Shown in pieces: positions 63,459 to 64,000 of a stretch of DNA of 64,000 nt; positions within the stretch are counted from its first letter, which is position 1, and each line of letters starts with the position of its first letter. The notes under the pieces are model-generated. The model did not search any database and was not told the origin of the DNA. It saw only the letters and a list, made by a program, of their open reading frames with translations. A program made the translations under genes and the position numbers. The stretch lies in assembly GCF_029946005.1 (NCBI RefSeq), contig NZ_JAQSDR010000002.1:1-64000 (forward strand). Reading direction: 5' to 3'. Source of the DNA: Aquabacterium sp. (lineage in GTDB: Bacteria; Pseudomonadota; Gammaproteobacteria; Burkholderiales; Burkholderiaceae_C).

Positions 63459-63590
63459 AAAAAGACAGAAGGCCGCATGTAGCGGCCTTCTCATTTGGTG
63501 CTCTTCAGCTTGTTAGCGGACAGAACGCATATCCCGATCATCTAACGTGATGCCGAGTATATGCTGTAGCCTGCTACCGTTGTAATCAAA
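63459..63590 (-). ncRNA. candidate tracrRNA (structured RNA divergent from cas9)
   Basis: Read on the minus strand, this gap has a possible anti-repeat end (GGCTACAGC at 63572-63564). It is followed by a long hairpin at 63564-63527 (outer stem GCATAT/ATATGC, then CTCG/CGGG and CATC/GATG), a linker and an intrinsic terminator. One U-G pair in the CTCG/CGGG stem becomes A-C on the plus strand, favouring minus-strand RNA. The hairpin loop GTTAG can pair with CTAAC downstream (63516-63512). Type II-C loci often encode tracrRNA near cas9. The 5' end and promoter are not defined, and no CRISPR repeat is available here to test pairing. Confidence 0.5.
63467..63491 (-). terminator. intrinsic terminator of the candidate tracrRNA
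   Basis: AGAAGGCCGC (63467-63476) and GCGGCCTTCT (63482-63491) form a perfect 10-bp stem with a 5-base loop. On the minus strand it is followed by GTCTTTTTC, a proper U-tract. On the plus strand only CATTTGG follows, so it is a poor terminator for the upstream operon. Confidence 0.8.
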
Positions 63591-63606
63591 TGCAGGGAGA
63601 AAAGGC

Positions 63607-64000
63607 ATGCTGCCTAAAATGCGCTACCGCTTGGCGTTGGACCTTGGCACAACCTCCATTGGGTGGGCCATGATTCGCCTGGATGCAGAAAAGGCTCCGG
63701 TGGCCATCATCCGCATGGGCGCTCGCATTTTCCCAGATGGGCGCAATCCCAAAGACGGCAGCTCCTTGGCCGTCACACGGCGAGCCGCTCGTCAAATGCG
63801 ACGCAGGCGTGATCGTTTGCTGAAGCGAAAAGAGCAGATGCTGGCCTCGCTGACGCGCCTGGGGTTTTTCCCCACCGATGAAGTGCAGCGCAGAGCACTG
63901 GTCACTTTGGACCCTTACGTGCTCCGCAAAAAAGGTCTGCATGAAATCCTAACCGGACCTGAGTTTGCGCGAGCACTGTTTCACATCAATCAGCGCAGAG
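63607..64000 (+). CDS. cas9: Cas9 endonuclease, N-terminal part (runs off the window)
   Basis: The frame is open to the window end (131 codons) and absent from the ORF track. RuvC-I is RYRLALDLGTTSIGWAMIRL, with the catalytic Asp. IRMGARIFPDGRNPKDGSS leads into the Arg-rich bridge helix (RRAARQMRRRRDRLLKRK). DPYVLRKKGLHEILTGPEF and ARALFHINQR match the start of the recognition lobe. The pattern is that of compact type II-C proteins. AGGGAGA lies six bases before ATG 63607; ATG 63619 is an alternative. HNH, RuvC-II/III, cas1, cas2 and the array should lie to the right. GC content looks lower than in the operon before it, suggesting acquisition by transfer. Confidence 0.93.
   Translation, partial: MLPKMRYRLALDLGTTSIGWAMIRLDAEKAPVAIIRMGARIFPDGRNPKDGSSLAVTRRAARQMRRRRDRLLKRKEQMLASLTRLGFFPTDEVQRRALVTLDPYVLRKKGLHEILTGPEFARALFHINQRR

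Follow-up and report, generated by a model that had tools for sequence, protein, structure and literature searches.

A type II-C tracrRNA gene divergent from cas9 in Aquabacterium sp., and candidate natural single-guide RNAs among its relatives

The non-coding gap adjoining cas9 in an Aquabacterium genome almost certainly holds the tracrRNA gene of a type II-C CRISPR-Cas9 system, read on the minus strand from 63548 to 63459, leftward and away from cas9. The sequence evidence behind this assignment comprises pairing with the array repeat, uniqueness, conservation, covariation in the terminator, promoter position and the gene content of the locus. The tracrRNA itself is of the ordinary type II-C kind; what is of broader interest is found among its relatives.

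The stretch analysed, here called the window, is the first 64,000 nt of a 408-kb contig from a genome of 4.53 Mb. The gap runs from the end of the upstream ORF (63445) to the cas9 ATG (63607), and the features in and beside it are as follows.

63459 to 63548, minus strand: tracrRNA gene, predicted RNA of about 90 nt, with the start (plus or minus 3 nt) placed from the promoter
63459 to 63466, minus strand: terminator tail GTCTTTTT, a U tract
63467 to 63491, minus strand: intrinsic terminator hairpin, 10 pairs, loop of 5
63500 to 63509, minus strand: putative nexus-like small hairpin GCU-GAAG-AGC after CUAACAA, from the minimum free energy fold
63512 to 63547, minus strand: anti-repeat, 30 pairs with the repeat, 20 of them uninterrupted, −48.4 kcal/mol
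63556 to 63561, minus strand: putative −10 box TATACT for the tracrRNA, 39 nt before CTAAC
63580 to 63586, minus strand: weak −35 region, TTACAA (spacing 18) or ATTACA (spacing 19)
63594 to 63599, plus strand: cas9 ribosome-binding site AGGGAG, from the sequence
63607 to 64000, plus strand: 5′ part of cas9 (full product 1021 aa, to contig position 66672; TIGR01865 at 609.7 bits, HNH_4, RuvC_III)

The CRISPR-Cas locus

Downstream of cas9 come cas1 (TIGR03639, the type II Cas1 model) and cas2, followed directly by the array, 26 repeats of 36 nt with a 66-nt period at about 68025-69707, just to the right of the window. No csn2 or cas4 was found between cas2 and the array. Because the locus consists of cas9, cas1 and cas2 only, and its Cas9 carries both HNH and RuvC domains, we type it as II-C. 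Right of the array lie a ParE-like gene and a small partner, toxin-antitoxin-like by eye (L009:7751-8292, contig 69751-70292).

Anti-repeat and upstream hairpin

Among the 1584 segments scanned over the final 4 kb of the window, 63507-63548 pairs most strongly with the array repeat (−48.4 kcal/mol), and the pairing continues up to the repeat's first bases (GUU with AAC). A pattern search for the repeat across the 4.5-Mb genome, allowing up to 3 mismatches, returned the 26 array copies and the anti-repeat site and nothing else; the site is thus complementary to the repeat, outside the array and unique in the genome.

The original prediction had placed the anti-repeat about 25-50 nt too far upstream, within the tracrRNA promoter. 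The segment that it named, GCTACAGC (63563-63570), is the promoter spacer between the −10 and −35 elements and shows no pairing with the repeat, whose sequence in guide-RNA orientation is GTTCCGGTCAGATCGCATATCCCGATCATCTAGACT and does not have the start then proposed, GCTGTAGC. Pairing the repeat with the reverse complement of 63560-63600, the check proposed at the time, gave −13.5 kcal/mol, a value equalled or bettered by 1098 of the 1584 segments and unremarkable against −48.4 kcal/mol at 63507-63548, and we rejected this stretch as the anti-repeat. The anticipated continuous pairing of about 20 bases or more is absent from 63560-63600 but present, with its 20 uninterrupted pairs, at 63512-63547. 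The supposed overlap of the anti-repeat with the cas9 ribosome site also falls away, as about 46 nt separate the anti-repeat from AGGGAG.

A long bulged hairpin, likewise predicted, does exist at 63517-63583 (z −3.6, with 0 of 200 shuffles as stable). However, it is not conserved, and one of its arms is the true anti-repeat while the other is the promoter; its inclusion in the mature RNA is unsupported, and it probably lies outside that RNA. It nevertheless bears on whether a long-form tracrRNA is also produced from the window, with a 5′ extension that pairs with the anti-repeat to give a natural single guide or a sequestering hairpin. We consider this very unlikely. The stability of the hairpin, a nominal p = 0.01 for pairing of the upstream segment with the anti-repeat, and the likely long forms in related genomes all speak for it. 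Yet as a copy of the repeat the 5′ arm is at chance level (p = 0.25), and it coincides with the promoter; the pairing is not a conserved feature of the relatives, and p = 0.01 is about what would be expected for the best of 55 loci. Nor did we find, in the window genome, a guide segment recurring beside a motif resembling a PAM. A repeat mimic in the window was rejected on identity, with the pairing value judged insufficient. The window genome therefore appears to carry a plain tracrRNA only, with no sign of a natural single guide.

Promoter and 3′ tail

The best −10 box stands 35-40 nt before CTAAC in most of the 55 units compared, and from its position here the tracrRNA would start near 63548 and be about 90 nt long. 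This length, with an end near 63459, agrees with the earlier expectation of 90-140 nt at its low end. A strict consensus promoter scan found no tracrRNA promoter; the hexamers in the gap are weak. The divergent promoters of tracrRNA and cas9 may interfere with each other, because the tracrRNA promoter (about 63556-63586) occupies most of the roughly 58-nt gap from the tracrRNA start to cas9, so that the cas9 promoter must overlap the tracrRNA promoter or gene.

As had been foreseen, a terminator with a U tract is found on the minus strand only (63491-63467, tail to 63459), and none was found on the plus strand of the gap. In an alignment of 41 units, compensatory changes occur in 9 of 17 predicted pairs, mostly in the terminator stem, where most pairs show them; the conserved 3′ tail and the intrinsic terminator lie on the same strand. 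The GC/GC positions of the nexus-like hairpin are invariant in the 41 relatives. The consensus fold of the free tracrRNA draws a different pairing at this position, and we therefore propose the nexus only by its likeness to other tracrRNAs. As a whole, the RNA from 63548 to 63459 folds more stably than its shuffles (z −3.7).

Conservation and orientation

A Cas9 search of bacterial genomes yielded 56 loci, mostly in Beta- and Gammaproteobacteria. A minus-strand unit upstream of, and divergent from, cas9 was found at 54 of those loci as well as in the window. The 54 related loci share the anti-repeat, the order of parts, the orientation and the promoter position, and the anti-repeat fits the repeat of its own locus wherever an array was found. 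The core of the RNA is near-invariant (CGCUAACAAGC...GCAC(C/A)AAAUG). The tail is short and has one terminal hairpin only, which sets the family apart from other type II-C tail shapes. A covariance model of the family has a single match in the window genome (63462-63541, minus strand, E 5.8e-18), and it matches 38 of 401 genomes sampled from the family and 13 of 399 from the order; a scan of the window with Rfam at gathering thresholds brought no family to threshold. The existence of a minus-strand RNA unit in the sole gap next to cas9, its identity as a tracrRNA and its divergence from cas9, all put forward in the original prediction, are borne out by the stability of the fold, the covariance match, the conserved promoter position and the 54 related loci.

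Solitary tracr-like units were seen in four genomes with no cas9 above the cut-off (L092/L117 in G370, of the same genus as the window; L123 in G820; L116 in G122; L091 in G303). In a fifth, G019 (L088/L119), which has no cas9 match, a repeat, a 30-nt spacer and another repeat lie directly 5′ of the tracrRNA; we did not count this arrangement as a single guide. Because no cas9 above the cut-off was found, we treat these five units as possible orphans or relics.

The repeat-like inverted pair would in principle permit a tracrRNA on either strand, and thus one whose anti-repeat is read rightward into cas9, with the array co-directional with the cas genes. We regard this as highly improbable: the plus strand lacks a terminator, the 54 relatives have their conserved tail, terminator covariation and promoter on the minus side, and it is in the minus reading that the pairing reaches the first bases of the repeat and adjoins the conserved tail. 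In the published description of type II-C, moreover, the direction of the array is the reverse of that of the cas operon (PMC3936727). The notion that the gap holds the terminator of the upstream gene (ORF end 63445) plus chance complementarity, and no tracrRNA, draws on the U-tailed hairpin near that gene's end, but it is effectively refuted by conservation and unique pairing that, with the uniqueness of the site, go far beyond chance, and by a U tract on the strand opposite the upstream gene.

For the leftward tracrRNA, known type II systems suggest how the locus would work. The tracrRNA would be transcribed away from cas9 by its own promoter at about 63556-63586, and the array leftward as well, opposite to the cas genes. 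This array orientation rests on that of the tracrRNA, because searches of phages, plasmids and family genomes found no perfect protospacers for the spacers of the window genome's own array. The 5′ part of the tracrRNA (63547-63512) would base-pair with the repeat of crRNAs expected to carry GUUCCGGUCAGAUC... at their 3′ side, Cas9 would bind the 3′ tail (CUAACAA, nexus and terminator hairpin), and the crRNA:tracrRNA duplex, after transcription and processing, would load Cas9 for the cutting of phage DNA.

Type II-C tracrRNAs, such as those of Neisseria meningitidis and Pasteurella multocida, likewise consist of an anti-repeat, a linker, a small hairpin and a terminator, and their loci likewise have cas9-cas1-cas2 with the array opposite to the cas genes (PMC3936727). 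The window family differs from them in its one near-invariant core and in its site, immediately upstream of cas9 and divergent from it.

Probable natural single-guide RNAs in related genomes

Comparison of the related sequences suggests that this tracrRNA family has probably become a natural single-guide RNA several times in type II-C systems, in which Cas9 would repress its own locus. In seven related genomes a copy of the repeat is joined to a tracrRNA, and the guide end matches a site near a promoter of the cas locus.

In four of them (Curvibacter sp. CHRR-16, Aquabacterium parvum B6, G280 and G1215) the repeat copy lies 5′ of the tracrRNA. That of Curvibacter sp. CHRR-16 (L057:7500-7760) scores 23/27 by local alignment to the genome's own repeat, a score reached by 0 of 300 shuffles, and is located 54 nt to the 5′ side of the anti-repeat. 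The 11 nt that immediately precede this repeat copy, TGTGGTTCGTG, are found again 58 nt upstream, within the cas9 intergenic region, where they are followed by AGGGAT. The same arrangement, each time with a 10-nt guide of its own sequence, is found in A. parvum B6 (L051:7712-7930, flank GGGTGT) and in G280 (L080/L118:730-960, flank GGAAAT), where cas9 is cut off at the contig end. Among 91 distinct units, direct repeats of at least 10 nt with one copy ending at the start of the repeat copy occur only in these three. In G1215 (L184:1200-1560) the guide is GGTGTCGTGTA; the site that it matches, GGTGTCGTATA, lies immediately upstream of the cas9 start, differs from the guide by one mismatch and has the flank GGAAAT.

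The remaining three genomes, the sister species G330 (L190), G1218 (L189) and G1221 (L188), possess a second tracr-like unit, at a distance of about 1 kb from the tracrRNA and on the far side of an NYN-domain gene. This separate, putative single-guide unit has a GTTCCGG start and a compact hairpin, after which comes the tail of the tracrRNA. Its three seeds of 9 nt (TGCGAAGGT, TGTGGAGGT and TGCGGAGGT) each recur exactly upstream of the −10-like box of their own unit, with the flanks AGAAAT, AGAAAT and GGAGAT. Since the seeds differ and yet each recurs exactly at its own target, guide and target have changed together at two positions.

The motif RGRNRT, whose frequency in these regions is 0.7% of positions, follows all seven targets; it was read off the first six targets, and the seventh was found afterwards. 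Searches of phages and plasmids with four arrays gave no usable protospacer. Spacers compared with 300 family genomes gave two exact protospacers, one for the A. parvum B6 array and one a self-match of L027, too few to define a PAM. The flank of the former, TGGTGC, is similar to the flank of the A. parvum B6 single-guide target, GGGTGT, though this is one protospacer only.

Two further observations may be added. The NYN-domain gene (PF01936; L176:5337-6098 in G330, and also in L186 and L185) is conserved in three species, with the tracrRNA on one side of it and the putative single-guide gene on the other. The self-matching spacer of L027 (genome G137) has its exact match elsewhere in its own genome (L166, contig 7, 239016-239046), with the flank GAAGTTCA.

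Discussion

Like the type II-A tracr-L of Streptococcus pyogenes, the relatives carry a copy of the repeat on the 5′ side of the anti-repeat, and their guide, here of 9-11 nt, matches a site near a promoter of the cas locus (PMC11417352, PMC8616872, PMC8730458). Unlike tracr-L, they belong to type II-C, and in three sister species the unit is a gene of its own, with a compact hairpin and a short loop; in the window genome a counterpart of tracr-L is absent. According to a 2021 review, tracr-L had not been found outside some type II-A systems (PMC8616872). We found no report of a type II-C tracr-L in the literature searched, with most papers in subscription journals outside its reach.

For the window itself, the tracrRNA and the repeat complete the set of components known for this compact II-C Cas9 (1021 aa), enabling single-guide design and testing of the enzyme. 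If our reading of the relatives is true, self-repression by Cas9 would be more widespread than type II-A and would have arisen repeatedly, and II-C systems would include natural single guides in which guide and target co-vary. The relatives are systems on which this could readily be tested, some of them with compact hairpins similar to engineered sgRNAs.
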